Shown: positions 4,922-31,900 of the stretch, one piece after another | Position numbering within the stretch: position 1 is the first letter of the stretch | Layout of the letters: each line of letters opens with the position of its first letter | Assembly: GCA_020630475.1 (NCBI GenBank) | Contig: JAHDBI010000033.1 | Location: 1-33,440, forward strand | Length of the DNA stretch: 33,440 bases | DNA from: Saprospiraceae bacterium | GTDB taxonomy: Bacteria > Bacteroidota > Bacteroidia > Chitinophagales > Saprospiraceae | Reading direction: 5' to 3' | Notes under the pieces: generated by a model | What the model was told of the DNA's origin: nothing | The model's database searches: none | The model's input: only the letters and a program-made list of their open reading frames with translations | Translations under genes and position numbers: made by a program

Positions 4922-4984
4922 TTGCAATAAAGATAAGGAAGCTGAGGAGTTAGATTGTATAAAATAGATTCAGAGCTAATATTA

Positions 4985-4997
4985 TTCGGCGAAAGCC
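4985..4997 (+). repeat. Dispersed motif TTCGGCGAAAGCC, copy 2 (intergenic)
   Basis: An exact 13-base copy in the intergenic region between the divergent ABC ATPase and deoxynucleoside kinase genes, so protein coding cannot explain it. Core at 4989-4996. The remainder of this 164-base intergenic stretch is very AT-rich (about 5016-5060) with no TAnnTTTG element that I can see. Confidence 0.7.
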
Positions 4998-5085
4998 ACG
5001 AAAAAGCCTAAGAACTTACATATTTTAAACATATTTATATTTAAAATTTATATTATTACACTCCTTTTCAAAGAAGAATACTGAG

Positions 5086-5706
5086 ATGATAAAACATATT
5101 GCCGTAGCTGGAAATATAGGAGCTGGAAAAACCAGTTTGTCTGAACGATTATCTCAGCATTATGGGTGGGAGGTACAATACGAAGATACGAGTACCAACC
5201 CCTACCTCAGCGATTTTTATAATGACATGAATCGCTGGTCTTTCAATCTTCAAGTGTACTTTTTAAACAGTCGATATCGACAAGTTTTAGATATTCGCAA
5301 AGGGGATAAAACGGTTATTCAAGATCGGACCATTTATGAAGATGCACACATCTTTGCTCCCAATCTTCATGAGATGGGACTTATGTCCAAAAGAGATTTT
5401 GATAATTACTTCTCCTTATTCGAATTGATGTCACAACATGTTGATGCTCCGGACTTAGTCATTTATCTAAAGGCAAGCATCCCAACGCTGGTGAGTCACA
5501 TTCAAACAAGAGGTCGGGATTACGAAGGTAGTATGAGCCTAGATTATCTAAGAAAGCTCAACGAAAGATATGAATCCTGGATCGATAGCTACCAAGAAGG
5601 AAAACTAGTGATCATTAATGCTGATGAAATTGACTTCATCAATCAACCAGAAGATTTGGGTAAAATCATCGAAGCCATTGATGGCAAACTACACGGTTTA
5701 TTCTAA
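5086..5706 (+). CDS. Deoxynucleoside kinase (deoxyadenosine/deoxyguanosine kinase family)
   Basis: The product (206 residues) belongs to the dNK family, which phosphorylates deoxynucleosides with ATP in the nucleotide salvage pathway. Visible are the P-loop GNIGAGKTS (9-17), the family motif DRTIYED (80-86, with the D-R pair that contacts substrate) and the arginine-rich lid (TRGRDYE, about 145-151). The length fits bacterial dAK/dGK enzymes. The substrate choice (dA, dG or dC) cannot be read from these motifs with certainty. The gene is divergent from the ABC ATPase gene. It shares its last bases with the stop of the convergent C25-like gene (CTAA read on both strands). Confidence 0.88.
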   Translation: MIKHIAVAGNIGAGKTSLSERLSQHYGWEVQYEDTSTNPYLSDFYNDMNRWSFNLQVYFLNSRYRQVLDIRKGDKTVIQDRTIYEDAHIFAPNLHEMGLMSKRDFDNYFSLFELMSQHVDAPDLVIYLKASIPTLVSHIQTRGRDYEGSMSLDYLRKLNERYESWIDSYQEGKLVIINADEIDFINQPEDLGKIIEAIDGKLHGLF

Positions 5707-7859: not shown

Positions 7860-7901
7860 ACGGAAGTATTTCTATATACTAGTTAATATAAGAAATGCTT
7901 G

Positions 7902-8711
7902 CTATTTAAATGCAAAGCCTTGTATAAAGGAATAGTAAAAGACGGCATCTTCATTGGATCTAAGCGATTCAAATTCTTTTTTGACTTTCGTCCAATGTAA
8001 TTTGTTCTTAATACCTCTTTCCTCCAATGGTACATAACCGCTATGAACGAGTCCTTCCCAGTAAGTCAATTTCTCTTCACGCTTATCTGGAGTGGATTTA
8101 TCCCATTGCATAGGAAAGGGTTTAACCACTACCCGAGTAAATTCTGCGTCTTTAAGGATATTGCCCAATTTTAAACCCACATTTGCATCCATGCCCATAT
8201 CAGCTTGAAGCTTGATTGTGGCTTTCCACATGGACATGATCTCATCACAAGTGGGTTCTAAATTTAAACTATCATGAAATACTTCAGTGATTTGAATTAA
8301 AGCATTATCCATTAAATTTGGCTTAATGGCGTTAAGCAACTCCACTGGTTTAGGCACATGTTCTAATACCCAGACCATTAAGAGACTATCAAAATGATTT
8401 ATTGGTAAAGGGTTTTCTTTCAAGACATCAGCACAAATTAGATGGTATCTATCCTCCTCTATACCAGCAAGGGTGAGATTCTTTTTTGCTTGATTAATTT
8501 GTTCTTCTGAATTATCTAATCCCGTCACTTTTAGATTTGGGAATCTTTTTAACAAATAGATCATTTGCGCTCCTACTCCGCAACCAATTTCCAAAACATG
8601 TGTTGAACCATTGAATGACATGTTTTGATAAATGTATTTGGATATTACGTCGTTTTGATAAATCAGACGTTCTTGTTCTTCTTTACTAAATCCGTGTATA
8701 TATTCGCTCAT
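7902..8711 (-). CDS. Class I SAM-dependent methyltransferase
   Basis: Motif I of Rossmann-fold methyltransferases is clear (VLEIGCGVGAQ), followed by an acidic motif II (VTGLDNSEEQI) and the post-motif VWVLEHVPKP. Length is 269 residues, without a signal peptide or membrane segment, so it should be cytosolic. The substrate is unknown: the pattern is shared by many small-molecule methyltransferases. The C-terminal part (about 165-269) contains KLTYWEGLVHSGYVPLEE and is less conserved. It is divergent from yggS with 43 bases between starts and lies 42 bases upstream of the C25-like gene on the same strand, so co-transcription with that gene is possible. Confidence 0.82.
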   Translation of the reverse strand: MSEYIHGFSKEEQERLIYQNDVISKYIYQNMSFNGSTHVLEIGCGVGAQMIYLLKRFPNLKVTGLDNSEEQINQAKKNLTLAGIEEDRYHLICADVLKENPLPINHFDSLLMVWVLEHVPKPVELLNAIKPNLMDNALIQITEVFHDSLNLEPTCDEIMSMWKATIKLQADMGMDANVGLKLGNILKDAEFTRVVVKPFPMQWDKSTPDKREEKLTYWEGLVHSGYVPLEERGIKNKLHWTKVKKEFESLRSNEDAVFYYSFIQGFAFK

Positions 8712-8727
8712 GAAAAATATTCATGTT

Positions 8728-8735
8728 TAAATTTG
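8728..8735 (+). promoter_or_regulatory. Putative -7 element (TAAATTTG) for yggS
   Basis: TAAATTTG matches TAnnTTTG and sits 19 bases before the yggS ATG, implying a short leader. The -33 position has TTCG (8703-8706) instead of TTTG, so the promoter is weakly supported. Confidence 0.35.
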
Positions 8736-8754
8736 AATAATCAATTTGCTATAA

Positions 8755-9402
8755 ATGTATCAAAAAATAAAAAGTCAATTGGCTGATAAAAATGTCAATT
8801 TGGTGGCTGTTTCTAAAACGAAGTCAAAAGAGGCCATTCTTGAAATATACCATCACGGACAGAGGATTTTTGGAGAAAACAGAACTGCTGAATTAAGAGA
8901 AAAACAAGAAGCTTTACCCAAAGACATTTCATGGCATATGATAGGATCTTTACAAAAAAACAAAGTAAAACATATTGCACCATTTGTTGATTTAATTCAC
9001 TCCGTAGATAGCCTTTCTTTAGCCGAACAAATCCATAAAGAAGCCATTAAAAATGACCGACGCATTCCCATTTTATTACAATATAAAATTGGTACAGAAT
9101 TAACTAAGCAAGGTTTAGACATTGGCGAAAGCCAAAGCGCCATCCAAGAAATTCTGCGACTAGAAAACATAGCTGTGCATGGAGTCATGGGAATGGCGAG
9201 CTTTACCAACGATCACGAGCAGGTACGGAAGGAATTCAAACAGCTCAAGTCAATCTTTGATCAATTAAAAAATCAGTATTTCCAAAACATCCCTGAGTTT
9301 AAAGAGATTTCTATGGGCATGTCTGGAGATTATGAAATAGCCATAGAAGAAGGCGCCACCTTAGTAAGGATTGGGAGTTTGATTTTTGGCTCGAGAAATT
9401 AA
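8755..9402 (+). CDS. yggS: YggS/PLPBP family pyridoxal phosphate homeostasis protein
   Basis: The 215-residue protein matches the YggS/PROSC family, a single-domain PLP-binding TIM barrel that buffers free pyridoxal phosphate and has no known catalytic reaction. The PLP lysine lies in LVAVSKTKS near the N-terminus. FGENR, WHMIGSLQKNKVKHI, GVMGMASF and the phosphate-binding SMGMSGDYEIAIEEGATLVRIGSLIFGSR region all agree with the family. The segment after FGEN reads RTAEL where most members have Y/KVQE. The stop overlaps that of the convergent VCBS gene by four bases (TTAA). Confidence 0.93.
   Translation: MYQKIKSQLADKNVNLVAVSKTKSKEAILEIYHHGQRIFGENRTAELREKQEALPKDISWHMIGSLQKNKVKHIAPFVDLIHSVDSLSLAEQIHKEAIKNDRRIPILLQYKIGTELTKQGLDIGESQSAIQEILRLENIAVHGVMGMASFTNDHEQVRKEFKQLKSIFDQLKNQYFQNIPEFKEISMGMSGDYEIAIEEGATLVRIGSLIFGSRN
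9125..9132 (+). repeat. GCGAAAGC mini-hairpin motif
   Basis: Core of TTGGCGAAAGCCAA, a perfect 5-bp arm pair around GAAA, inside yggS where it encodes GESQ. The protein context differs from the other copies. Confidence 0.6.
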
Positions 9403-11666
9403 ATCTTACTGAACTTCAAAGTAATTCCATTTTCCATTTTCACGAAGTATATTCCTGTAGAAAAATGACTAACATCGATAGATTTTCTATTGGACTGGCC
9501 ATTCATCACAAACTGGCCATGACTATTGAACACTCTAAAATACATATCTTCTTTTGTAGAAACATGTAATTGATTCGTAACGGGATTAGGGTAAACTAAG
9601 ATAGAGGCTTCCTTTTCTGGATATGAATCTACATCTGTCAAACCATCGAGGGTTAAATTTGTATCATAAAAGTTTATACCACCTCTAACATTACCGGTGA
9701 CGATTTCATACAATCCATCGTTATCGATGTCCGCCATACTCACGGTCATTTCATTTCCTTGATATACCTTTCCCCATTGAAGAGCTAGAGTATCAAAAAC
9801 ACCTTCTATATTACCTTTAATATTATCATAGGCTCGTATTCCATCTCTTAACGAACCAGTGACTAACCAAAAATCGTCACCTACATCAACCATAGTCGGT
9901 GACGAATTTCCAACAGCAGTATTATTAATTCTTGTGTTTACTCCACCAAAAACGGGGTTAAGATTTGTACTATCATTAAACATAGGCACACCGATGGACC
10001 CTACATTTTCAAAATAATTGACATTACCAACTACCCCGTCAACCGCTTCACCATGTCTCTCTCCTACCACTAAATCTCCAAGGCCATCTTCATTTATATC
10101 AAAAATAGCTGGCTTAGAAATCGACCCCACGTCAATGTCCATGAATTGAAATATCGCGTCTGCATAAACCGCTATTTCTCCAGGATCTGCAATATTTTCA
10201 GAATAATATAGATAACCGTTATTCGTTCCTACGACCAGGTCATCATCACCGTCACCATCCAAATCTCCTATGGCCGGTGCTAAATTTGCGGATTCATTGG
10301 AAAACATGGCATAGGCTGCATAATCATCATCTACCAATTGGAATTGAGGCAATGTTGGTGTTCCAACATTTTCATACAGCAATAATTTCGAATCGTTTTC
10401 AGCATTACTTATTCGATTCCCAGTGGAACCCACTAAAAGATCAATTTTACCATCGAAGTTATAATCAAATAAATGAGGGTTAGAAAAATTGCCAAAATCC
10501 AAGGAGTTGTCTGATATAAAATCATCCTTTATAAATTCAAAAACTTGATTATCCTGTGTCCCAACATTTTTGTAATAATGTACTAAGTCAATATTTTCTA
10601 CACCATTTGATATGTTCGGTGCAAAAACAAGATCTTTTAAACCGTCATTATCAATATCCAAATGGGCCGAACTTAAAAAGACACTCATTTGTACTGGAAG
10701 ATCGTACGAAGGAAATTGAATGTCTTGTGAACTCATCCAAGCTTCATCATCTAATCCTTCATTTTGTAGAAAAACAATTTTGTCATTAGACAAATCTCCG
10801 ATTAACAATTCTAACTTTTGATCTCCATCTACGTCCAAAGCCGTTACAGTAGAACCAGCATGTCGATGATCAGAAGAACCCCCCGATGTAAACAAAGAAG
10901 CGCATTCTGATGAATCATCACTCAAGGTCATTTGTGAGCCGAATGGTTCTTCAACAAACCTACCCCAACATTCATCTGCACGAATAAAGTCAAATGTATC
11001 TAATCCAAGATTATTTTCTACGGCCATGTTTTGATAATAAAACATAGTTGAACCGCCGGGATCAAAGGATAAAACATCTAAGTCTCCATCAAAATCCACA
11101 TCAACGATCTCTGAGATATCAGAAGAAGCAAAGTAAACATTAAAGTAATCTCCAGTAGGTGCTTCGTAGTGCAATCCGTTATAAATAAAATCCACATTTT
11201 CAAAATCATATAACTCAAACCTCAATTGGCCATCCACAATAGTTCCTGTTCTTACCTCAATTCCAGGAGCCGACTGATCGGAATTAATTGGGAAGGTAAA
11301 CATATCTTTTATTCCATCTTGGTTATAATCTCTAAACAATACCCAAGCGAAAGCATCTCCAAAAAGGCCTCTATATTCAGGCGCATATACGTAATTAGCA
11401 TCTCCCTCTTCGCCTTTATTTAAGAAGGGTATAAAAATATCAGCAGCCCTATCGAAAACGACTAAGTCTTCCTTTCCATCCAAGTCAAAGTCTAATTTAG
11501 AGAATTGGGGTGCGCCGAGACCACCAGTGAATGGATTAAGCAGTGATTCTCCATTTCTCTCTACTTCGTAACTAATCTCTGGAAATATGTACTGAGCATC
11601 AGCCCTTGTTCCAAATAAAAACAGAATTAAGCCTGGTAAAAGAAGGGTTTTTATATTTAGCCTCAT
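9399..11666 (-). CDS. Secreted FG-GAP/VCBS repeat protein with T9SS sorting domain
   Basis: A 755-residue extracellular protein with a signal peptide (1-25, cleaved after ADA), a long beta-propeller-like region and a T9SS type A tail starting VYPNPVTN (about 691-755). The propeller carries repeated calcium-loop motifs of the form DxDxDGxxDLxxG at about residues 59, 113, 189, 278, 337, 401, 468, 523 and 646, the pattern of FG-GAP/VCBS (integrin alpha-like) repeats. Such proteins act in adhesion or carbohydrate/protein binding at the cell surface; no ligand can be inferred. No catalytic domain is seen. It is convergent with yggS and has its own start at an ATG about 70 bases from the divergent NhaC gene. 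Confidence 0.88.
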   Translation of the reverse strand: MRLNIKTLLLPGLILFLFGTRADAQYIFPEISYEVERNGESLLNPFTGGLGAPQFSKLDFDLDGKEDLVVFDRAADIFIPFLNKGEEGDANYVYAPEYRGLFGDAFAWVLFRDYNQDGIKDMFTFPINSDQSAPGIEVRTGTIVDGQLRFELYDFENVDFIYNGLHYEAPTGDYFNVYFASSDISEIVDVDFDGDLDVLSFDPGGSTMFYYQNMAVENNLGLDTFDFIRADECWGRFVEEPFGSQMTLSDDSSECASLFTSGGSSDHRHAGSTVTALDVDGDQKLELLIGDLSNDKIVFLQNEGLDDEAWMSSQDIQFPSYDLPVQMSVFLSSAHLDIDNDGLKDLVFAPNISNGVENIDLVHYYKNVGTQDNQVFEFIKDDFISDNSLDFGNFSNPHLFDYNFDGKIDLLVGSTGNRISNAENDSKLLLYENVGTPTLPQFQLVDDDYAAYAMFSNESANLAPAIGDLDGDGDDDLVVGTNNGYLYYSENIADPGEIAVYADAIFQFMDIDVGSISKPAIFDINEDGLGDLVVGERHGEAVDGVVGNVNYFENVGSIGVPMFNDSTNLNPVFGGVNTRINNTAVGNSSPTMVDVGDDFWLVTGSLRDGIRAYDNIKGNIEGVFDTLALQWGKVYQGNEMTVSMADIDNDGLYEIVTGNVRGGINFYDTNLTLDGLTDVDSYPEKEASILVYPNPVTNQLHVSTKEDMYFRVFNSHGQFVMNGQSNRKSIDVSHFSTGIYFVKMENGITLKFSKI
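11347..11354 (+). repeat. GCGAAAGC mini-hairpin motif
   Basis: Core octamer only; the bases just outside (A and A) do not pair. It lies antisense to the VCBS gene, whose complement encodes DAFAW. Confidence 0.5.
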
Positions 11667-11735
11667 TATCTTAAATCTTTATCCTTTAAAGATACGAGGA
11701 TAGCCCATGATTATTATCAGGAATTACCTTTAATT

Positions 11736-13808
11736 ATGAATAAACTCATTCGATTGTCACTTTGGATTATTCTCATTCTTTTGAATCTCCAAACTACCCA
11801 AGCTCAATGCGATAAAGCCAAAATGGATTCTACTTTTTATCCAGAATTAAAATCGATCAGTAAAATATCGATTGCTCAAGAGGCAGAAGATGTTATATTC
11901 ATTACGAGCAACAAAGAATGTGGTAAAATCAGCATAGACATCAACGGTGATTCACAAGAATTAAAATTCATCAATGGTCGAGCCAAATCAAATATTGAGC
12001 TAGATAATAAAGGTACTTTATACTTCCTTTCTTATCCATCTGAAAACAAGGAAAACGCTTTGTTTCATTTAAGCCAAAAAGATAAAAATCCACCAAGAAT
12101 TAAATCAATCCCTCTGTGGTATTCGCTAATCCCTCCTTTACTAGCAATTATCCTTGCGCTAGTATTCAAGGAAGTAATTGTCGCATTATTTTGTGGTATT
12201 TGGGCGGGTGCTTTTATCGCTGGAGGATTGAGGTTTGAATCTCTTTATTACTTTCTTGTTTCATTCATGGAATCTATAGAGAAGTATGTCATCGGTGCCT
12301 TAAATGACGGTGGGCACTTGTCTGTCATTGTTTTCTCTTTGCTTATAGGTGGAATGGTTGCGATTATTTCAAAAAATGGTGGAATGGCAGGTGTGGTGCT
12401 TAGGCTTTCAAAATATGCCAAATCAAAAAGGAGCAGTGAGTTCATTACATGGCTTCTAGGGATTGCTATTTTCTTTGACGATTATGCCAACACTCTCATT
12501 GTGGGTAATACTATGCGTAGCGTTACGGACAAGTTCAAGGTATCAAGAGAGAAGCTGGCGTATATTGTAGATAGTACTGCGGCTCCTGTTTCGGCCATAG
12601 CTTTTATAACAACTTGGATTGGGGCCGAACTGGGTTACATTGATGACGGGGTATCAAAGATCGCATTGGGTGGAGATTTAACCGCTTACGCTATTTTCAT
12701 TAGCTCATTAAAGTATTCATTCTATCCTATTCTCACCTTGGCATTTATATTATTTATTGTCTTGAGTAAAAAGGATTATGGCCCTATGCTTAAAGCAGAA
12801 AAAAGATCCATTCTAAAGGGGCAGGTTTCCCCTGCAAAAAACTTGAGTGAAGATGAACTGAATATGGAAGACTTATCACCTGTTAAGGATGCGCCTCAAA
12901 GATGGTATAACGCCGCAATTCCGGTTTTAACGGTCATATTAGTGACTATTTTCGGATTGATTGATACAGGCATGACGGGTGTTTATAATTCCCTTTCGGG
13001 AATGGAAATAGATAACTTATCCTATTCTTGGGGATCTATTTGGTCTAACATGAACGCTCTCGGTGAAAGTGGAACAGGATTTTTCACTAAGCTTGGTACA
13101 TTGATTGGATCATCCGATTCTTACGTCGCATTACTTTGGGCTTCGTTGTCTGGAGTGGTCATTGCGCTTATTTTAACCGTTTCTCAAAAGATCATGACCC
13201 TGTTTGACTCTATGCATTGGATGGTTAATGGATTTAAAACGATGATGCCCGCATTAATTATTCTCACCTTGGCTTGGGCACTTGCCGCTTGTACAAATGA
13301 ATTACACACTGCAGATTTTTTAAGTGGAGCTTTAGAAAACAGTATCAATCCTTATTTAATACCGGTGATCATTTTCATCTTAGCGGCGTTGATTGCATTT
13401 TCTACAGGGAGCAGTTGGAGTACGATGGCCATATTATATCCCATTGCTATACCCACATGTTTTGCCATTTGTCAAGCGAATGGAATATCTGACGAAATGA
13501 CCTTTGAATTACTTTTAAACGTTATTGCTACTGTTTTAGCAGCTAGTGTTTTAGGGGATCATTGCTCTCCTATTAGTGATACCACCATTTTATCTTCTTT
13601 GGCTTCTGACTGCAATCACATTGATCATGTACGAACACAACTTCCTTATGCATTGACCGTTGGTCTAGTCAGTATCACCTGCGTGGGATTAAGTACTTTA
13701 TTAGGAGGCGGATGGTTAATATCCATTGCTCTACTCATTTCTGGTATGGTATTGTTATGGTTTATAGTACAGCAGTTTGGTAAACGAGTCGAGGTAAGTT
13801 CACATTAA
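11736..13808 (+). CDS. NhaC-family Na+/H+ antiporter with secreted N-terminal domain
   Basis: The C-terminal ~565 residues form a polytopic transporter of the NhaC family. Evidence is the IFFDDYANTLIVG motif, the conserved LAWALAACTNELHTADFL segment, STGSSWSTMAILYPIAIP, and LAASVLGDHCSPISDTTILSS near the end. It should exchange Na+ (or an organic substrate in relatives) for H+ across the inner membrane. Unusually, the first ~120 residues are a signal-peptide-like segment (1-24, ending TQAQC) and a polar, beta-rich stretch (25-122) before the first transporter helix (SLIPPLLAIILALVF). That stretch would face the periplasm. A shorter start inside the reading frame is possible but would leave the upstream open frame unexplained. 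Total length is 690 residues. Confidence 0.87.
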   Translation: MNKLIRLSLWIILILLNLQTTQAQCDKAKMDSTFYPELKSISKISIAQEAEDVIFITSNKECGKISIDINGDSQELKFINGRAKSNIELDNKGTLYFLSYPSENKENALFHLSQKDKNPPRIKSIPLWYSLIPPLLAIILALVFKEVIVALFCGIWAGAFIAGGLRFESLYYFLVSFMESIEKYVIGALNDGGHLSVIVFSLLIGGMVAIISKNGGMAGVVLRLSKYAKSKRSSEFITWLLGIAIFFDDYANTLIVGNTMRSVTDKFKVSREKLAYIVDSTAAPVSAIAFITTWIGAELGYIDDGVSKIALGGDLTAYAIFISSLKYSFYPILTLAFILFIVLSKKDYGPMLKAEKRSILKGQVSPAKNLSEDELNMEDLSPVKDAPQRWYNAAIPVLTVILVTIFGLIDTGMTGVYNSLSGMEIDNLSYSWGSIWSNMNALGESGTGFFTKLGTLIGSSDSYVALLWASLSGVVIALILTVSQKIMTLFDSMHWMVNGFKTMMPALIILTLAWALAACTNELHTADFLSGALENSINPYLIPVIIFILAALIAFSTGSSWSTMAILYPIAIPTCFAICQANGISDEMTFELLLNVIATVLAASVLGDHCSPISDTTILSSLASDCNHIDHVRTQLPYALTVGLVSITCVGLSTLLGGGWLISIALLISGMVLLWFIVQQFGKRVEVSSH

Positions 13809-22862: not shown

Positions 22863-24680
22863 CTAAAGATTAAATTTTGTCGAAAAGGACCAGTACCTTA
22901 GAGGCATTCCAAAGAATCGGACAACCTCATAGTCCTGGTTAAATAAATTGTGGCACTTTATTGAAACAGATGTCAAATATCTATTTATTTCACTTAAATC
23001 ATAATGAAGTGACAGATCATTAATAAAATATTTTTCCGCTACTAATCGCTCCGAATTATCAAAACTTGTAAAACGCTCGGAAACAAACAATTGATCCAAA
23101 TTAAATGACCATTTACCTACTTCAGCATGAATGCGGTTGACTATTTTATATCTGGGAATATAAATCAATTGGTTACCTACGTATTCCGTAATTGTCTGAT
23201 GTTCTAATATCTCTGTATTGGTCAAATTGACATTCAAATTCCACAGCCATTTAGTCTTTCCGATCGACCTATGGTGTTTTAAGCCAATATCGTATCCGTA
23301 TGTTCTGACCTTAGCGATATTCAAGGGTGACCATATCAACTGATCATTCAAGGTCCATTGAATCCAATTATCAATATGATTCAAAAAGATTTGAGATTCG
23401 ATTTCAAAATTCTTTTTACGATAAACTAATCTTAAATCCCATGAGTAGTTTATTTCAGGCTCTAAAAGTAAATTCCCGCCATTAGGCCAATATAAATCAT
23501 TCAAACTTGGCAACTGAAAGGACTTACTATGTGTTATAGTGTAATCAAAATTATTTCGAATTGAGCCATTAACTCCGATGTTGTATGTAAATACCTCGCC
23601 ATGAGCAGAATATTGATCAAATCGAATAGTCGCTTCAGGTTTAATCCGCCCTCCTGACCATTCGTCTTGAATACTTAAACTCCCTCCAATATTAGTTCGA
23701 TTTTGAATCTCATTAAAAAAATTGGCATCTGTCCTATCCTTTCTATAATTCACTAAACTAGATATCCTCAAGTCATTAGAAAAGTATTTTTTTATTGACC
23801 ACCGGGACATTACACTTTGATTTTTGGCAATGGATTCATCAATTGCTAAATCGTCAAATTCCAGATACTCCTTGAAATACCCAACATTTAAACTACTAGT
23901 CCATGTGTTAGAGTTATAGTTCATTTTGGTATTTATGCGGAGGTTTTTGTCCACCTGCTCGGCACCATTATAACTCGATGATTTTGAGGGCCCGACCTCC
24001 CGCTGGATCCATTGATGCCATACATTAAAGGCTAAGCTTGTATTGTTACTTATTTGTGTCTTTAAGTTTCCAATATACTGTAATGAATTGTACGAATTAT
24101 TGTCCTGTTGAAAACGAGCATTGTTATACTCATAATTAAATCGATTCTTATTGAAATCCATTTCAACTCCAAACTTAGCTGACCACTTTTCTTTACTTTG
24201 TCCATGAAGTAATTGAATCTTGGAATTATTTAAAGTAGAATAATCTAAACTTAATTCAGTCGAAAATTCAGGATTCGTTAAATGACCCAAATCTAAAAAA
24301 CCACCCATCGAAGCATTGCCAAGTAAATAGCTTTTGGATTGGGATGAACTGGAAACTTGATGAAATAAATCAGGTATCATGCTCAAATCATATGTAGAAT
24401 TGACCGGACTTTGTATATTCCAGTCATTCCATAAGATCGCCGTATGCCTTGCTGCCAATCCGTTAAAAAGTAAAGTAGACAAAAGTCCAGGACCGTTAGA
24501 TTGAAGGTGACTACCCTTTTGGAATTCTAAGTTTTTTAATGCTCCAGCCTCATTAGATATATGTAATGAATCTTCGTGATTATGAGTAATCAAAAGAGGC
24601 TCTATATCTATCTGAATTTCTTCTTGAGATATTCCAAAGAACGCATACAAGCATATACAAATTGATATTAGAAATCTCAC
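22863..24680 (-). CDS. TonB-dependent outer-membrane receptor, BtuB-like
   Basis: A 605-residue receptor with a signal peptide (1-18), a plug domain (about 40-130) and a 22-strand-type barrel ending in an aromatic C-terminal strand (RYWSFSTKFNL). The plug motif SNGPGLLSTLLFNGLAARHTAILWNDWNIQSP and the barrel motif SFQLPSLNDLYWPNGGNLLLEPE agree with BtuB-type cobalamin receptors. It is short and has no N-terminal carboxypeptidase-regulatory domain. The start is GTG within a GTGA overlap with the LptF/G-like gene, and the BtuG-like gene follows by 2 bases. I found no cobalamin riboswitch in front. Cobalamin as the substrate is inferred from motif and partner. Confidence 0.83.
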   Translation of the reverse strand: MRFLISICICLYAFFGISQEEIQIDIEPLLITHNHEDSLHISNEAGALKNLEFQKGSHLQSNGPGLLSTLLFNGLAARHTAILWNDWNIQSPVNSTYDLSMIPDLFHQVSSSSQSKSYLLGNASMGGFLDLGHLTNPEFSTELSLDYSTLNNSKIQLLHGQSKEKWSAKFGVEMDFNKNRFNYEYNNARFQQDNNSYNSLQYIGNLKTQISNNTSLAFNVWHQWIQREVGPSKSSSYNGAEQVDKNLRINTKMNYNSNTWTSSLNVGYFKEYLEFDDLAIDESIAKNQSVMSRWSIKKYFSNDLRISSLVNYRKDRTDANFFNEIQNRTNIGGSLSIQDEWSGGRIKPEATIRFDQYSAHGEVFTYNIGVNGSIRNNFDYTITHSKSFQLPSLNDLYWPNGGNLLLEPEINYSWDLRLVYRKKNFEIESQIFLNHIDNWIQWTLNDQLIWSPLNIAKVRTYGYDIGLKHHRSIGKTKWLWNLNVNLTNTEILEHQTITEYVGNQLIYIPRYKIVNRIHAEVGKWSFNLDQLFVSERFTSFDNSERLVAEKYFINDLSLHYDLSEINRYLTSVSIKCHNLFNQDYEVVRFFGMPLRYWSFSTKFNL

Positions 24681-26245
24681 GCGTTGCTCTTGTAGAGTTT
24701 TGATTTCAATTTGATTAGAGATCCAGAAAAATCAAATAATCGACTATCATTCATGGCTTTGATGGTCAGGAAAACAGCGATGGGCGTAAGTACAATACAA
24801 GGCAACCATGCTGCAAAAATCGGACTGGCAGATTCTGATCGATTCAATTTGACTCCAGCAATAAAACTGATCATGAAAATCATATAAAACAATATGGCAA
24901 ATAACAATGGATAACCATAACCTCCCTTCTTTACTATACTTCCTAAAGGAGCACCAATGAATAAAAATATCAAACAGATTAAGGCTACAGAATATTTTTG
25001 ATTCAAAGTAAACATATACATCCTTCTATCCTTTTTAACTAGATTGACTTTAGATCTTACAGAACGAATTTTATCCCTCATACCAATAGCGCCTGAATAA
25101 GAAGTGATCAATACCTTCATGGCATCTGTCAAATCAAAGGTTTCTAAAAAAGAATCCATTTTCTCTAGATCCAAATTTTCTAGTTGTTTATACTTTATTT
25201 CATTCGATCTTGCTTTTTTAGTACTATTCTTTTGCCGTTTCTTAGCCCTAATAGATTGCTTAAACGATTCATCCGATGTATACTTTGGTTTTTTCGGCGC
25301 TTCATCCTCATCTACATTTTGATTCTTTAGTATAGAGTTTTTGGATACCACATCTAAATTTAAATTTTCATCCAATCGTAAAGCCATTAATTTATCCATC
25401 GAATCAATGGCATGATACAGTTGAAAAGAATTTAAAAGATCAAATTTTTTCCTTTGAAGACTAGAAGAAGAACCACTAAAATTAAAAGCATCCATGTCAA
25501 AGACTTTCGACATTTTATCAAAATGCACACGCATGAATGGGTATTTCTTTTTTCGAACCTGGCCTTTAATCTTCGGTGAATTATTCTTTAGTTCTTTATA
25601 CTGGATTCCTTGGTGCAAGTTCATGATAAAATGTGCACCATCATCTGTAACAAACATTTCTCCTGACTTAGCTCGAATCACATTAATCAGGCTTTTATCA
25701 GGATCAGAATGATCATAAATAAGTACATCTTTAATCCCTTTACCATCTTCCAGTTTTTCGCTTACGCGAATGGCAAAGCCCTTAAAATCCTTATTGAATA
25801 TTCCTTGTTCGATGGTCATGGAAGGTTTGGCCTTTTTGATTGAGTCGAATCGCGACAAAAATTCCAAATTGGACTTGGGAACTAGATAATTTGAAGCAAT
25901 AATAGAAAATAGACATGTCATGACGGCAATAGCCATTCCGGCCCTCATGATCCTCCACAAAGATACTCCGGCAGATTTTATGGATGATAATTCATATCTC
26001 TCGGCCATATTTCCGAACACCAATACAGATGAAATCAATATTGTAAGCGGAATCGCCATGGGAATCAAGGTGACAGATAAATAAGACAACAATTCTAGGA
26101 TATTGAACATAGAAATACCCTTTCCTAGGATACTGTCAATTTGCTTCCATAAAAATTGCATTAATAGAACAAATTCAGCCACAAAAAATGCCGCCAAATA
26201 AGGCCCCATAAAACTTGTTGCAACTAATTTATCTATCTTCTTCAC
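24677..26245 (-). CDS. LptF/LptG family (YjgP/YjgQ) permease with large insertion
   Basis: The 522-residue protein has the LptF/LptG plan: three N-terminal membrane segments (about 12-34, 55-77, 98-120), a periplasmic beta-jellyroll part, and three C-terminal segments (about 407-427, 433-455, 470-495). MKKIDKLVATSFMGPYLAAFFVAEF and the ERYELSSIKSAGVSLWRIM helix (the segment contacting the LptB ATPase) are characteristic. The family exports lipopolysaccharide with LptB and LptC. Typical members have about 360 residues; the extra length is a charged, Lys/Ser-rich region (about 265-395). The start is GTG. It is joined by a 4-base overlap to the receptor gene. Confidence 0.85.
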   Translation of the reverse strand: MKKIDKLVATSFMGPYLAAFFVAEFVLLMQFLWKQIDSILGKGISMFNILELLSYLSVTLIPMAIPLTILISSVLVFGNMAERYELSSIKSAGVSLWRIMRAGMAIAVMTCLFSIIASNYLVPKSNLEFLSRFDSIKKAKPSMTIEQGIFNKDFKGFAIRVSEKLEDGKGIKDVLIYDHSDPDKSLINVIRAKSGEMFVTDDGAHFIMNLHQGIQYKELKNNSPKIKGQVRKKKYPFMRVHFDKMSKVFDMDAFNFSGSSSSLQRKKFDLLNSFQLYHAIDSMDKLMALRLDENLNLDVVSKNSILKNQNVDEDEAPKKPKYTSDESFKQSIRAKKRQKNSTKKARSNEIKYKQLENLDLEKMDSFLETFDLTDAMKVLITSYSGAIGMRDKIRSVRSKVNLVKKDRRMYMFTLNQKYSVALICLIFLFIGAPLGSIVKKGGYGYPLLFAILFYMIFMISFIAGVKLNRSESASPIFAAWLPCIVLTPIAVFLTIKAMNDSRLFDFSGSLIKLKSKLYKSNA

Positions 26246-26398
26246 TATGCTAATTATACTTCTACAAAAATGCCAAAAGAATACCCAATCACCTAAGTTA
26301 AACGTCTGAATATGCTATTTCATCTTGGGATATGCAGATAAGTGTTAAAATTCCTGAACTTGTAACAAATTTTAATCTATTGACGTCAATTCAGTGTA

Positions 26399-26902
26399 AT
26401 GCGTGAAGAACAACTTTTGAACTTAATACTTCCATTTAAAGACAAACTATTTCGATTTGCATATCGAATAATAGGTAGCAGTTTTGAAGCTGAGGATATC
26501 GTTCAAGAGGTCATTATTAAAGTGTGGAAGAAAAAGGAGCAATTTGCTGAGATTGAGAATAAAGAGGCTTGGTGCATGACATTAACTCGAAATTTATCGA
26601 TAGATAAAAAACGAGCGAAAAGAATGAAAACTACAGGCATTGAGGATTTTCATCACCTTCAAGACAGTAATGACGACCCTCAAATGTCTTTGGAGCGAAT
26701 GGAGTTAGTCAATAAAGTCCGAGCGATGATAGACACTTTACCGGAAAGACAAAAAATGGTCATTCACTTAAGAGATATCGAAGGATTGAGTTACAAAGAA
26801 ATCAGTAGCACATTAGACTTAAGCCTTGATCAAGTCAAAGTTATATTACACAGAGCAAGAAAATCTTTAAAAGCAAAATTTGCAAAAACAGATGAACAAT
26901 AA
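26399..26902 (+). CDS. ECF-type RNA polymerase sigma factor
   Basis: The 167-residue sigma factor has region 2 (FAYRIIGSSFEAEDIVQEVIIKVWKK, about 17-50) and region 4 (LPERQKMVIHLRDIEGLSYKEISSTLDLSLDQVKVILHRARKSL, about 110-155) and lacks regions 1 and 3, so it is of the ECF class. It directs transcription of an envelope or stress regulon. The following gene overlaps its end by 11 bases and probably encodes its anti-sigma factor. Three DUF4252 genes follow in the same direction before a terminator and are the likely operon products and possible targets. Confidence 0.94.
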   Translation: MREEQLLNLILPFKDKLFRFAYRIIGSSFEAEDIVQEVIIKVWKKKEQFAEIENKEAWCMTLTRNLSIDKKRAKRMKTTGIEDFHHLQDSNDDPQMSLERMELVNKVRAMIDTLPERQKMVIHLRDIEGLSYKEISSTLDLSLDQVKVILHRARKSLKAKFAKTDEQ

Positions 26903-27368
26903 TCAATATATAAAATCACTACTGGATAAGTATTGGGAAGGCGAAACTAGCCTCTCCGAAGAACAAGCTTTGAAAGACTATTTCAAAAGCGGTCATGTCG
27001 CTGACCATCTTAAAGAATACCAAGGACTCTTTGATTTTTATAGTCTTGAAGCTTCAAAAGTTTCTAGTATCGACATGAAGAAGCTTTTAGATAAGCAATC
27101 TTCTAATCATTCAGCCAAAATCAGACCTCTAAGAGGTTGGTTAGTCAGTGTTGCCGCGGCAGTGACGCTTTTGGTCTCAGCTGTTTGGCTTTATAATCAA
27201 AAAGAAACGTTAGTATCCGAAGATTATGTCTACGAAGTTGAAGATCCGGAAGAGGCTTTGGAGATCACTAAAGATGCATTAGCTTTTTTGTCTATCAAGT
27301 TTGACGAAAGCTCTAAAACAATTAACACGAACGTCCAGAAAATCAAGGCCGCTCGAAAATTTAAATAA
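26892..27368 (+). CDS. Putative single-pass anti-sigma factor
   Basis: The 158-residue product has a cytoplasmic N-terminal part (1-78) with LLDKYWEGETSLSEEQALKDYF, a segment common to small Bacteroidota proteins encoded next to ECF sigma genes. One membrane helix follows (about 82-102, GWLVSVAAAVTLLVSAVWLY) and a short charged periplasmic tail ends in ARKFK. No HxxxCxxC zinc anti-sigma motif is present. The role as inhibitor of the upstream sigma factor is inferred from gene order, overlap and topology. The ATG at 26892 is chosen; an upstream TTG at 26880 would lengthen the overlap. Confidence 0.7.
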   Translation: MNNNQYIKSLLDKYWEGETSLSEEQALKDYFKSGHVADHLKEYQGLFDFYSLEASKVSSIDMKKLLDKQSSNHSAKIRPLRGWLVSVAAAVTLLVSAVWLYNQKETLVSEDYVYEVEDPEEALEITKDALAFLSIKFDESSKTINTNVQKIKAARKFK

Positions 27369-27395
27369 CATTATTAACTATAAACAGATAACAAC

Positions 27396-27902
27396 ATGAA
27401 GCAATTTATTTTAACTCTATGCTTGGCATTCGTTGCCTCTATTGGCTCCAGCCAAGCTGATGCTATAGAAAAATACTTTAGCAAGTATTATGACGATGAG
27501 TCATTTACTACAGTATACGTCAGTCCTAAGATGTTTCAAATGGTTACCAAAGTAATCAGTGAAAATGAAAACGAGGAAATTAAAGAATTGATTGAAGGAA
27601 TTAAGGGTCTTAGAATCTTAAGATCAGAGACTAACGCTCCAGCTTTGTACGAAGAGGCTATCAATACTATTAATACCAAAGAGTATGAAGTATTAATGAC
27701 TGTACGGGATAAGGAAAATAACGTTCAGTTTCTCACAAAAGAGTCTAATGATATCATTTCAGAATTATTGTTGCTTGTTGGTGGAGATGAGTTTGTTATG
27801 CTAAGCTTTGTTGGAAATATCAATCTTAACAGTATTGCTAAGCTGGCTAAATCTTTAGATATAGACGGTGCAGAGCACCTCGAAAAACTTGAGGACAAAT
27901 AA
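27396..27902 (+). CDS. DUF4252 domain protein 1 (secreted)
   Basis: This 168-residue protein carries a signal peptide (1-20, cleaved after SSQA) and a DUF4252 domain: FSKYYDDESFTTVYVSPKMFQMV, IKGLRILRSE, YEVLMTVRDKENNVQFLTKES and DEFVMLSFVGNINLNSI. The family is known mainly from Bacteroidota and has no established function. It is the first of three tandem paralogues after the sigma and anti-sigma genes. The lack of a lipobox suggests a soluble periplasmic protein, in contrast to the second paralogue. Confidence 0.85.
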   Translation: MKQFILTLCLAFVASIGSSQADAIEKYFSKYYDDESFTTVYVSPKMFQMVTKVISENENEEIKELIEGIKGLRILRSETNAPALYEEAINTINTKEYEVLMTVRDKENNVQFLTKESNDIISELLLLVGGDEFVMLSFVGNINLNSIAKLAKSLDIDGAEHLEKLEDK

Positions 27903-27925
27903 TAGTCTAAAAAGCTAAATCAAAC

Positions 27926-28435
27926 ATGAAAAAATACTTGCTGTTATCTGTTATTTGTTTGTGCTTCTTAGCATGTTCTTCTCCTACTCGGAGTATAGAT
28001 CGATTTATAGACATCCATAAAGAGCAACGTCACGCTTATGCTGTCACCATACCTGGCTGGTTGATTCGGTCAGGGACAAATTGGGCTTCGCGTTTTGCAG
28101 AAGGTCAGGACGAACAAGCATACTATAGTTTAGGTCAATACATTAAAAAACTTAGGGTTCTTGTGATCAGTGAACAATCATTGGTTCAACAAACCGAATT
28201 TTCTCAACTTATTAAAAACGCTAAGTCAGAAGGTAATTACGAAGAATACGTTACCGTAAGAAAACCTGATGGATTAGTCAACGTGATGGTTAGCCAAGTC
28301 GACAATATTGTAAAAGGATTATTGGTAATAGCCAATGAAGAGGAATCTTTTGCGATTGTTAATTTAAAAACAGACTTACCATTACATATTTTTGAACAAA
28401 CTGACTTCTCCTTTTTAAAAGACAAGGAGAAATAA
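27926..28435 (+). CDS. DUF4252-like lipoprotein 2
   Basis: This 169-residue paralogue has a lipoprotein signal (CFLACSS, lipidated C17) and a diverged DUF4252-like domain: YIKKLRVLVISEQSLVQ, YEEYVTVRKPDGLVNVMVSQVDNIVKGLLVIANEEESFAIVNLKTDL. The same strand order aligns with paralogues 1 and 3. It would be anchored to the periplasmic face of a membrane. The N-terminal half (residues 18-70, with AVTIPGWLIRSGTNWASRFA) is unlike the other two. Confidence 0.78.
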   Translation: MKKYLLLSVICLCFLACSSPTRSIDRFIDIHKEQRHAYAVTIPGWLIRSGTNWASRFAEGQDEQAYYSLGQYIKKLRVLVISEQSLVQQTEFSQLIKNAKSEGNYEEYVTVRKPDGLVNVMVSQVDNIVKGLLVIANEEESFAIVNLKTDLPLHIFEQTDFSFLKDKEK

Positions 28436-28452
28436 TTAAAAAAATACAAATC

Positions 28453-28944
28453 ATGAAAAAGTTAATATTCCTATTTTCCTTCGTTCTATTTACGAGTACT
28501 TCCATTTTTGCTCAAGATGCATTCGATGCTTTTTTCGAATCTCAAAAGAGTGATGAGCATACGATGAAATTAAACCTAGAAGGAGATTTTATCAATATGT
28601 TTTTAAGTGAGGAGCTTGAAAAAGAAGGAAAGGATAAGCTAGATAGCCGCATTGATCAAGTAAAACTATTAATCTATGATAATGCTGGTGGGAACAAAGA
28701 AGTGGTTAAAGGACTTGTGAGTTCATTCAGAACTCAGGGTTACGAACAATTGATCCAACTAAGAGACAAAGGAAACAAAATTGAAGTGTTCTCAAAGGAC
28801 AATGGAGATGTGATCACCAATGCATTTGGATATATTACTCAAGAAAGCGACAAAATGATTCTCGTTAAGGTGATTGGTGAAATTTCAATGAAAGATTTGG
28901 ATATCGTCATCGGGAAAATGTCTGAAAACGAAGGAGATAATTAA
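28453..28944 (+). CDS. DUF4252 domain protein 3 (secreted)
   Basis: The 163-residue third paralogue has a signal peptide (1-20, ending SIFAQ) and the same domain: FFESQKSDEHTMKLNLEGDFINMF, IDQVKLLIYDN, YEQLIQLRDKGNKIEVFSKDNGDVI and SDKMILVKVIGEISMKDL. It ends the sigma/anti-sigma/DUF4252 unit; a strong terminator follows. Like the first copy, it lacks a lipid anchor. Confidence 0.85.
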   Translation: MKKLIFLFSFVLFTSTSIFAQDAFDAFFESQKSDEHTMKLNLEGDFINMFLSEELEKEGKDKLDSRIDQVKLLIYDNAGGNKEVVKGLVSSFRTQGYEQLIQLRDKGNKIEVFSKDNGDVITNAFGYITQESDKMILVKVIGEISMKDLDIVIGKMSENEGDN

Positions 28945-28962: not shown

Positions 28963-29000
28963 AAAAAGCCAGTCAGTGAATGCATTGACTGGCTTTTTTT
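28963..29000 (+). terminator. Intrinsic terminator closing the sigma/DUF4252 operon
   Basis: A 13-bp perfect stem (AAAAAGCCAGTCA and its complement) with a 10-base loop and T-tract. An in-frame ATG for the next gene lies inside this hairpin, which argues against that start. Confidence 0.92.
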
Positions 29001-29023
29001 ATATTGGAACAAATTCGAAAGAC

Positions 29024-31900
29024 ATGAATTATAGAATCAATATTTATCATTTTCTAAAGCTAAGTTTTTGCTGCGTTTTCTTGATTTGCATTTCGTTCAT
29101 TAATGCACAATCGCAAAACCTAGATTGGTTTGATGATAGAAATGAGTTCATATCACAGTCACCATATTCTGATCTATCCTTTGAAAATATTGGGCCCACA
29201 GTATTTAGTGGTAGAGTTGCCGATATCGATGTAAATCCATCTAACCCGGCAGAATTTTACGTAGCCTATGCTTCAGGAGGATTATGGTATACTAATAATA
29301 ACGGGACTACTTTTACTCCTTTGTTTGACCAAGAGGCAGTGATGACCTTGGGCGACGTAGCCGTAAACTGGAAAAATGGACATATATGGGTAGGTACTGG
29401 AGAGGTTAATTCCAGTAGATCTTCATATGCAGGTGTAGGTATGTATAAAAGTGAGGACAAAGGAAAAACATGGCAGCATAAAGGTCTTAATGGAACGGAT
29501 CATATAGGGCGGATAGTTTTGTTTCCGGACGAGCCCAATAAACTTGCCGTTGCTGCATTAGGCAAACTGTATTCTACTAATGAAGATCGAGGCATTTACC
29601 TAACAAACGATGATGGAGAATCGTGGTTAAAAACTTTATATGTCGATAGTATAACAGGTGGCGTGGATCTTATCATAGATCCAACTGATGAAAACATTTT
29701 GTATGCCGCCATGTGGCATAGAATTAGAAAAGCATGGAATTTCACTGAAGCTGGCAAAGGTTCGGGATTGTATAAAAGTGTTGATGGTGGTAGTTCATGG
29801 ACGCGATTAAATAATGATGGATCGGGTTTCCCCAATGGTGAAGGCGTAGGACGAATAGGACTAGACATTAGCGCTGACGGTAAAAAAGTTTATGCCCTTT
29901 TAGATAATTATTTTCGTCGACCGGCTGCCCCGAAGAAAAAATCTCAAGGCTTAACTAAAGAAGAATTTGTAGACATGACCGCGGCTTCATTTTCGCAAAT
30001 TCCCAAAAGTGAATTAGAGGCATTCCTAAAGGACAATGGTTTTCCTAAAAAGTATGATGTAGTGAAGGTAAAGGAGATGGTTGCAAGCAACAAAATAAAA
30101 CCTTCTGCTTTAAAGGAATACTTAGAAGATGCGAATAGGCTTTTATTTGACACACAAGTCATTGGCGCGGAAGTTTATTGTACCGTGAACGGGGGTAAGT
30201 CTTGGGCGAAGACCCACAATAAATATCTAAACAATGTTTATAATTCATATGGTTATTATTTTGGTCAAATCAGAGTAGCTCCGAGAAATAAAGATCAAAT
30301 ATATATCATGGGTGTTCCTATATTAAGATCGGACGATGGTGGCAATACTTATGTATATGTCAATGGTGAAAACGTTCATGTCGATCATCACGCGCTTTGG
30401 ATTAATCCTAATATTGAAGGGCATATCATCAATGGAAACGACGGTGGAATTAACATTAGCTATGATCATGGAGAAAGCTGGATAAAATGTAACTCCCCTT
30501 CTGTGGGCCAATTTTATTATATAAATGTGGACAATGCAGAACCTTACAATGTATACGGCGGACTTCAAGACAATGGTGTTTGGATGGGCTCCCATTATTA
30601 TAGAGAGGGAGTCAGATGGCATAATACTGGACGCTACCCTTATCAATCCATCATGGGAGGTGATGGGATGCAAATCCAAATAGATAAAAGAGATAATACC
30701 ACGGTGTATACTGGATTTCAATTTGGAAATTATTTCCGAATAAACACACAAACGTCTAAACGACAATACATCACTCCGAAACACGAGTTGGGTGATCGAC
30801 CATATAGATGGAATTGGCAATCTCCAATTCATTTATCTGTGCACAATCAAGACATCTTATATCTTGGATCAAATAAGTTATTGCGAAGTTTTAATCAAGG
30901 CGATGACTTTGAAGAAATCTCTGGCGACTTAACCAATGGAGGTAAACCTGGCGATGTCCCTTATGGAACGTTAAGCTCCGTACATGAATCCAGACTAAAA
31001 TTTGGACTTATTTACACTGGATCAGACGATGGTGCAGTTCATGTCACGAAAGATGGTGGTCATTCATGGACAAGAATAGACGGAAATTTACCTCAAGGAT
31101 TATGGGTTAGTAGAATTCAAGCTTCAGCTCATAAAGAATCAAGAGTTTATTTAAGTTTAAACGGCTATAGAAATGATTCTAGGTCGAGTTATTTATACAT
31201 GAGTGATGATTATGGAAGTAACTGGACGGACTTAAGTGGCCTTATTCCTCACGAGGCGGTTAATGTTTTTAAAGAAGATGCTCAAAATGAAAACATGCTC
31301 TTTGTTGGAACTGATCATTCCACATATATATCAATTGATATGGGAAAAAGTTTCCAACGAATTGGCAACAACATTCCACAAACACCAGTGCATGATCTAG
31401 TTGTGCAAGAAAGAGATGATCATTTACTCATTGGTACCCATGGACGTTCGATTTTCAAAGCATCTCTTGCGCCATACAGATTTCATATCAATAATAAGGA
31501 TCAAGAATTAACTTTAATGAGTCTTAGCGAAATCAAGCATTCAAGTGCATGGGGAAATAAAAGGTCATTTTACTCTAAGATCAATTCCCCTAATGTTGAT
31601 ATTCATGTCTATTCAAAAGTGGCGCGGGATATTGACATCAAAATTTTGACACAAGACAAAAAAGAGCTGAAAAAACTCAAACATTCAGCGAAAGCTGGAT
31701 TGAATCTTGTGAAATTTGATTTAACTATAGATGATTCTCGAAAATCCAATTTAGAGAAGCACGTTAAATCGAGCACCAAGAATAAAAAGGCATCTGTTCT
31801 CGTGAAAGATGACGGCAATATTTACTTGGAGAAAGGAACGTATATCGTACTAGTTCAGACGGGCAGTCATAAATCCGAACAATCATTAGTTATCGAATAA
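29024..31900 (+). CDS. Secreted sortilin/BNR-repeat beta-propeller protein
   Basis: The 958-residue protein has a signal peptide (1-29) and a long propeller with Asp-box/BNR-type repeats: KSEDKGKTWQH, TNDDGESWLK, KSVDGGSSWTR, CTVNGGKSWAK, RSDDGGNTYVY, TKDGGHSWTR and MSDDYGSNWTD. The start FENIGPTVFSGRVADIDVNPSNP matches the VPS10/sortilin-like 'glycosyl hydrolase' family common in Bacteroidota. Despite that name no hydrolase activity or catalytic residues can be read here. A Lys-rich helical insert (about 298-381) interrupts the propeller. There is no T9SS tail. The start at 29024 is used because it begins the signal peptide and lies beyond the terminator. Confidence 0.85.
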   Translation: MNYRINIYHFLKLSFCCVFLICISFINAQSQNLDWFDDRNEFISQSPYSDLSFENIGPTVFSGRVADIDVNPSNPAEFYVAYASGGLWYTNNNGTTFTPLFDQEAVMTLGDVAVNWKNGHIWVGTGEVNSSRSSYAGVGMYKSEDKGKTWQHKGLNGTDHIGRIVLFPDEPNKLAVAALGKLYSTNEDRGIYLTNDDGESWLKTLYVDSITGGVDLIIDPTDENILYAAMWHRIRKAWNFTEAGKGSGLYKSVDGGSSWTRLNNDGSGFPNGEGVGRIGLDISADGKKVYALLDNYFRRPAAPKKKSQGLTKEEFVDMTAASFSQIPKSELEAFLKDNGFPKKYDVVKVKEMVASNKIKPSALKEYLEDANRLLFDTQVIGAEVYCTVNGGKSWAKTHNKYLNNVYNSYGYYFGQIRVAPRNKDQIYIMGVPILRSDDGGNTYVYVNGENVHVDHHALWINPNIEGHIINGNDGGINISYDHGESWIKCNSPSVGQFYYINVDNAEPYNVYGGLQDNGVWMGSHYYREGVRWHNTGRYPYQSIMGGDGMQIQIDKRDNTTVYTGFQFGNYFRINTQTSKRQYITPKHELGDRPYRWNWQSPIHLSVHNQDILYLGSNKLLRSFNQGDDFEEISGDLTNGGKPGDVPYGTLSSVHESRLKFGLIYTGSDDGAVHVTKDGGHSWTRIDGNLPQGLWVSRIQASAHKESRVYLSLNGYRNDSRSSYLYMSDDYGSNWTDLSGLIPHEAVNVFKEDAQNENMLFVGTDHSTYISIDMGKSFQRIGNNIPQTPVHDLVVQERDDHLLIGTHGRSIFKASLAPYRFHINNKDQELTLMSLSEIKHSSAWGNKRSFYSKINSPNVDIHVYSKVARDIDIKILTQDKKELKKLKHSAKAGLNLVKFDLTIDDSRKSNLEKHVKSSTKNKKASVLVKDDGNIYLEKGTYIVLVQTGSHKSEQSLVIE
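31688..31695 (+). repeat. GCGAAAGC mini-hairpin motif
   Basis: Core of CAGCGAAAGCTG, a 4-bp pairing around GAAA in the sortilin-like gene (encoding SAKAG); the outer bases differ from the GGC/GCC copies but still pair. Confidence 0.6.

Follow-up and report, generated by a model that had tools for sequence, protein, structure and literature searches.

A conserved ECF-type promoter and a DUF4252-associated anti-sigma tail in a probably self-activated Bacteroidota operon, described from a Saprospiraceae bacterium

The RpoE-RseA-RseB system of E. coli is encoded by an operon of a sigma factor, an anti-sigma factor with one transmembrane (TM) helix, and a periplasmic partner. In P. gingivalis, the genes PG0214-0218 comprise, in this order, a sigma factor, a putative anti-sigma factor, a DUF4252 protein and two more genes; for one mutant under HPS, a joint increase of about 5- to 10-fold is reported, and a second set, PG0985-0987, rises alongside (PMC10101095). 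The latter set was lowered in two sphingolipid mutants (PMC9045371), and PG0215, PG0216, PG0985 and PG0987 were reduced in a mutant of the Fur orthologue (PMC4222909). In P. bivia, the genes for a sigma factor and three DUF4252 proteins drop jointly (PMC11410844). The sigma factor PGN_0319 was named SigCH, and cdhR and hmuYR are given as its direct targets (PMC5607195); we equate it with PG0214, because PGN_0320 corresponds to PG0215 in the same source. For F. psychrophilum, an ECF-type motif that includes a CGT box was described in front of a sigma/anti-sigma pair (PMC9723704). In their available portions, the published transcriptomes support joint regulation and a link to the envelope or to stress, and give no mechanism. 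Within the available text of the literature naming DUF4252, we found no link between these proteins and an anti-sigma tail.

The locus described here lies in a window of 33,440 nucleotides, which is the whole stretch of DNA that was analysed (contig JAHDBI010000033.1 of a Saprospiraceae bacterium). A sequence-only reading had assigned to positions 26399-28944 a sigma factor, an anti-sigma factor and three diverged DUF4252 proteins, bounded by a terminator; coordinates and family scores confirm this assignment (Table 1). The ATG of the anti-sigma gene is located within the sigma gene, the overlap being 11 bases, and the gaps following the anti-sigma gene, D1 and D2 measure 27, 23 and 17 bases. 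The terminator folds with a z value of -6.4; 0 of 200 shuffles were equally stable. That these genes constitute one unit is supported by the gene-order survey described below, in which the same arrangement is kept across the phylum. The named loci closest to this operon come from Saprospiraceae assemblies.

Table 1. Features of the DUF4252 operon and the evidence for their assignment
Feature	Position	Strand	Evidence
ECF-type promoter TGTAAC-N17-CGTC	26361..26387	+	11 bases 5' of sigma ATG
ECF sigma factor, PG0214/GFO_1088 family	26399..26902	+	NF058625; Sigma70_r2 and r4_2
Putative anti-sigma factor	26892..27368	+	position, model, conservation, domain scores
DUF4252-1 (D1), secreted	27396..27902	+	PF14060 101.7 bits; model pLDDT 80.1
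DUF4252-2 (D2), lipoprotein	27926..28435	+	PF14060 47.0 bits; lipobox FLAC
DUF4252-3 (D3), secreted	28453..28944	+	PF14060 40.8 bits
Intrinsic terminator	28963..28998	+	16-bp stem, loop 4, T run

Upstream of the operon, a divergent gene for an LptF/LptG-type permease is found (24677-26245, minus strand), and 3' of the terminator a large Sortilin/BNR-repeat protein is encoded (28976-31900, plus strand). LptF was rejected as a conserved partner, as it is the divergent neighbour only in the window's family. The assembly contains a second, diverged operon with the same neighbours on contig C12 (L007, positions 4500-12500). Over 3361 bases, this operon matches a contig of the congener G002 at 97.8% identity, and C12 was therefore taken as a contaminant contig. 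A duplication was rejected on the same grounds, the identity between the C12 and window operons being only 72-78% in matches over 200 bases. In the congener itself, a single contig carries all three DUF4252 matches.

DUF4252 is present in 87 of the 296 sampled genomes of the phylum. Leaving the window's genome aside, the survey set consisted of the 144 matches listed, which form 92 clusters, all of them fetched; four of the 87 genomes, having weaker matches, lie outside this set. The sequence-only reading had named as counter-evidence that DUF4252 genes might lie mostly away from sigma genes in relatives and not be controlled by this sigma factor. With respect to linkage, the opposite was found: among the matches listed, 81 of the 92 clusters contain a sigma gene, and a scan of named loci gave sigma, anti-sigma and DUF4252 genes in 77 of 80 cases, the remaining three running into a contig edge. 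Starting from the sigma factor, 51 of the 64 family matches over the cut-off outside the window's genome adjoin a listed DUF4252 cluster, as judged by eye, and so do the best 27 without exception (27/27). The sigma/anti-sigma/DUF4252 arrangement is phylum-wide. At the position that LptF takes in the window's family, an S41/PDZ peptidase cluster occurs in 35 of 92 loci; the cluster was grouped by single linkage, and Pfam was applied to two of its members.

Usually, one to three DUF4252 genes are found per operon. By a simple pattern, a lipobox is present in the second gene of 49/66 clusters in the phylum set; for the named set, the figure is 15/68. A soluble first and a lipoprotein second DUF4252 protein are therefore common, not fixed. 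In six operons (L067-L071, L079) the first DUF4252 protein has a length of about 420-440 residues, and the DUF4252-DUF2807 fusion of L067 is real. Apparent fusions of anti-sigma factor and DUF4252 in high-GC genomes were rejected; their long N-terminal parts resemble out-of-frame readings before a signal peptide. The sigma-less clusters are L082, L092, L095, L116, L124, L140, L144, L146, L153, L154 and L155; among these, L155 lies at a contig end and L116 retains a short anti-sigma gene. In L092, L095, L144 and L146, a lone DUF4252 gene is located 3' of genes encoding 272 and about 230 residues; in L144, the genes 5' of DUF4252 match panB and a pseudouridine synthase.

The sigma factor of the window scores 182 bits with NF058625 (sigma_PG0214; curated cut-off 130) and therefore belongs to a family already known to curators. 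The sequence 5' of its gene is TGTAACAAATTTTAATCTATTGACGTC, and the promoter given in Table 1 is the sole match of the motif within the window. TGTAAC followed by CGT has the -35/-10 shape of ECF promoters. The pattern TGTAAC-N15-17-CGT occurs in 80 of 100 stretches upstream of sigma genes, always with a spacing of 16 or 17, compared to 0 of 100 reverse strands and a mean of 0.1 per 100 shuffled stretches. Note that the 100 stretches include 19 from relatives, some of them redundant; if these are left out, 65 of 81 carry the motif. This conserved ECF-type promoter before most sigma genes of DUF4252 operons is a new observation, and with regard to control by the sigma factor, it would likewise speak against the counter-evidence named by the sequence-only reading. 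The window operon possesses the ECF-type promoter 5' of the sigma gene by which ECF autoregulation is recognized; from this -35/-10 shape we infer that the operon is probably activated by its own sigma factor.

When the strict pattern TGTAAC-N16/17-CGTC was applied to the window's genome, three matches resulted, namely the window operon, the contaminant contig C12 and one intragenic site; the reversed control pattern gave 14. A wide regulon was not found by the strict pattern in this assembly, which is 89.9% complete, so that targets of the sigma factor may be missing from it. The operon's output had been called unknown, which is true in part: cdhR and hmuYR are named as targets of SigCH (PMC5607195), and the operon genes co-vary in the published data available. 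In nine flavobacterial genomes, 35 of 40 chosen pattern matches were reported without an overlapping ORF. At two loci (L310, L311), a different ECF sigma gene is preceded by two divergent TGTAACC-N17-TCGTC motifs, and paired matches of this kind are listed in further flavobacterial genomes. As another ECF gene bears a similar motif, the flavobacterial targets were not assigned to the PG0214-family sigma factor. The motif TGTAAC...TCGTC was also seen 34-57 bases 5' of ABC-2 exporter operons (L163, L169, L194; also L312 and L314), which are about 80% alike across three genomes.

The second gene product is a putative anti-sigma factor, as suggested by adjacency to and overlap with the sigma gene. 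It consists of a cytoplasmic three-helix domain, one TM segment and a periplasmic tail of about 50 residues with the conserved helix DPEEALEITKDALAFLS. In the model, helices comprise residues 3-15, 21-32 and 38-56, and the TM helix (80-104) coincides with the hydrophobic stretch; the N-terminal helices are confident, with pLDDT values of about 90 or more (90-96 for the block up to residue 50). The predicted structure has the helical cytoplasmic domain followed by one TM helix that is characteristic of class I anti-sigma factors. Features of a zinc anti-sigma factor (ZAS) were absent from the window protein, which gave no zf-HC2 match and has no HxxxCxxC by eye; the protein had accordingly been described well as single-pass and lacking a zinc motif. 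In one DUF4252-linked anti-sigma factor of family f31 (L123), HLKKCSNC can be seen by eye, yet zf-HC2 is not matched. Among Pfam and NCBIfam models, no match to the window protein was obtained; none of 30 aligned relatives had a consistent Pfam match, and no solved structure is related to it by sequence. A read-through chain of anti-sigma factor and D1 was modelled with a pTM of 0.55. Besides D1, it displays three confident helices, the TM helix and a helix in the tail (119-152); the output lists no interface, and no contact was observed in this chain. A fold search with the fused model returned no anti-sigma domain among the best 50 matches. In L083, L010 and L018, the cytoplasmic domain is present in two or three tandem repeats.

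In order to relate the two halves of the anti-sigma factor to the neighbouring genes, each protein was cut at the TM helix, and the halves were scored with profiles from 77 DUF4252-linked anti-sigma factors. The 77 training sequences for the tail comprised 49 of the 77 named anti-sigma factors, restricted to lengths of 130-180 residues, and 28 members of family f20; no ORF was obtained for L105, and the ORF obtained for L080 was wrong. The comparison included 13 loci (L297-L309) with a sigma gene of the same family and no listed DUF4252 neighbour. In L297, L299, L301 and L303, two secreted proteins of the DUF4097 Toastrack type replace DUF4252, and the anti-sigma tail has about 150 residues. 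The Toastrack assignment is based on Pfam for L299 and L303 (one of four proteins just under the cut-off) and on position and length for L297 and L301; L298, whose partner genes lie past the contig end, was placed in the same set. L305-L307 are flavobacterial second copies with a secreted protein of 156-176 residues after the anti-sigma factor; the TonB plug match was checked for L305, and L306 and L307 were assigned by position. L302 has a sigma/anti-sigma pair and no partner, L308 and L309 represent another kind of pair, and L300 (plus an OMP) and L304 contain weak DUF4252 genes.

The cytoplasmic half scored 66-77 bits and the tail at most 3.0 in the five Toastrack-set loci (both partner genes seen in four); the values were 30-32 bits and below 1 in the three plug-set loci, and 88.5 and 0.5 bits in the locus having no partner. 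This sample of five, three and one loci is small and represents few independent events. The reverse situation is found in the 15 DUF4252-linked anti-sigma factors of family f31: their cytoplasmic halves score -0.8 to 8.9 bits, and 13 of the 15 tails outscore the best of 2040 shuffled tails. A tail profile from families f31 and f49 recognized 3/3 tails of f33, 8/11 of the high-GC group of f44 and others, and 5/6 of f23, and none of the Toastrack set (0/5) or the plug set (0/3). A profile trained on Saprospiria found 28 of 28 flavobacterial tails, and the reverse training 47 of 49. Recognition was incomplete in several cases. With the first profile, no f33 tail was found (0/3); f19 gave a mixed result (3/6 with the first, 0/6 with the f31/f49 profile), and with the f31/f49 profile, 29 of the 77 standard tails scored higher than every shuffle and 48 did not. 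The tails of L300 and L304 reached 1.1 and 5.2 bits despite the presence of DUF4252, which is not above the earlier shuffle limits. Taken as a correlation over few lineages, these scores suggest that the cytoplasmic half tends to go with the sigma factor and the tail with DUF4252. The separate scoring of the two halves and the co-segregation of tail and DUF4252 are new here. As the tail tends to follow DUF4252, we read the pattern as a contact between the two.

All three DUF4252 proteins score above the PF14060 cut-off of 23.9 bits, D1 being only 15% identical to D2 and 17% to D3. With the GFO_1090 family NF058626, D1 (100.5 bits) and D3 (38.5 bits) stay below the cut-off of 150. As read from the sequence, the signal peptides of D1 and D3 look ordinary and D2 carries a lipobox, which agrees with the earlier description of two soluble secreted proteins and one lipoprotein. 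A model of D1 was built from 69 sequences. Foldseek returned nothing at E 0.001 or better; in a second structural search, DcrB (6e8a; Z 6.7, 119 aligned, 5.5 Å) and SciW (6xrb; Z 6.3, 93 aligned, 4.2 Å) were found, followed by PA1624, EagT6 and Mog1, with PsbP-like proteins lower. The best structural neighbours thus form a consistent group of DcrB/EagT6/Mog1/PsbP-like proteins, all below the safe Z value of 8; tentatively, the DUF4252 fold may be DcrB/Mog1/PsbP-like. A sequence search of the PDB with D1 gave no hit below E 0.17, and no solved relative was found.

We consider it somewhat more probable than its denial that the operon encodes a self-activating envelope-stress switch, in which exported DUF4252 proteins act on the anti-sigma tail. 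The membrane-bound anti-sigma factor would hold the sigma factor through its cytoplasmic domain; once released, the sigma factor would transcribe its own operon from the promoter of Table 1. The DUF4252 proteins, D1 and D3 in soluble and D2 in lipid-anchored form, would act in the periplasm on the tail helix, and their state (free or engaged by a stress ligand) would set the grip of the anti-sigma factor on the sigma factor. Most likely, this would be a negative feedback similar to that of RseB: free DUF4252 would shield the tail, and engaged DUF4252 would permit its cleavage. As periplasmic partners of the tail, DUF4252 proteins would probably sense or damp envelope stress. What the analysis establishes is the anatomy of the operon, its linkage, the conservation of the promoter and the joint occurrence of tail and DUF4252; autoactivation, the contact, its sign, the proteolytic release and the ligand are proposals, and the lack of a protease gene in the window's operon counts against this reading.

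The sequence-only reading had considered the DUF4252 proteins as sensors or as effectors. That they are effectors only, i.e. abundant, envelope-protective products of the sigma factor having no part in signalling, we regard as unlikely, albeit worth serious attention. Two sigma-less DUF4252 loci, the single-gene L124 and the two-gene L140, have a TGTAAC...TCGTC motif of their own at 47-49 bases upstream, which the other nine sigma-less clusters lack; in the window's genome, no strict match except those of the window operon and the contaminant copy is placed as a promoter, which would make the operon's genes the main output; and PG_0987 is described as vesicle-located (PMC5378342). However, a role as effectors only does not predict that the tail should persist alongside DUF4252 and disappear in its absence. 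The co-segregation favours the signalling half of the earlier alternative, and the promoters at L124 and L140 keep the effector half in play.

The same co-segregation would fit equally well if the DUF4252 proteins were positive co-regulators, whose ligand-bound form promotes release of the sigma factor, the anti-sigma factor alone being inhibitory; in these operons, the sigma/anti-sigma pair is accompanied by one or more DUF4252 proteins, which is likewise compatible. Under autoactivation, however, an activator made together with the sigma factor would be prone to keep the switch in its on state, and we judge this variant improbable. Finally, linkage might merely reflect an ancestral gene order, tail and DUF4252 co-varying by descent and not interacting. 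The sets with Toastrack, plug or no partner comprise few loci and may stem from a single lineage each, but operon order and promoter persist across the phylum while the outside neighbours change, and the tail is retained in proteins that differ in their cytoplasmic half; pure descent is the account to which we give the least credence, and a very low one. With the self-activating switch as the preferred reading, DUF4252 is tied to one anti-sigma tail and one promoter, so that binding to the tail becomes directly testable, and the operon offers an entry to envelope-stress sensing in Bacteroidota. A broader reading, for which we see slightly less than an even chance, is a common Bacteroidota sigma/anti-sigma chassis whose periplasmic cassettes (a tail and its matching partner) are swapped as a unit; the proposed cassettes are the DUF4252 set, the DUF4097 Toastrack pair and the TonB-plug-like protein. 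If this were true, an undescribed anti-sigma family would have in DUF4252 the first periplasmic partner family assigned to it.

In gene make-up, the window operon resembles RpoE-RseA-RseB of E. coli, but it has three paralogous partners, and D1 gave no RseB match in Pfam, PDB sequence and Foldseek searches. The EcfO/Dma systems of Bacteroides and Phocaeicola are likewise Bacteroidota ECF switches tied to envelope stress. There, the dual membrane-spanning anti-sigma factor is described as crossing the periplasm and ending in an outer-membrane barrel (PMC9308784), whereas the anti-sigma factor of the window ends in a tail of about 50 residues and has separate partners. The PG0214/PGN_0319 (SigCH) operon of P. 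gingivalis is similar in that its sigma factor belongs to the same equivalog family, NF058625. SigCH is stated to act on cdhR and hmuYR, and the family of the window's sigma factor includes the regulator which P. gingivalis reportedly uses for hemin genes (PMC5607195).
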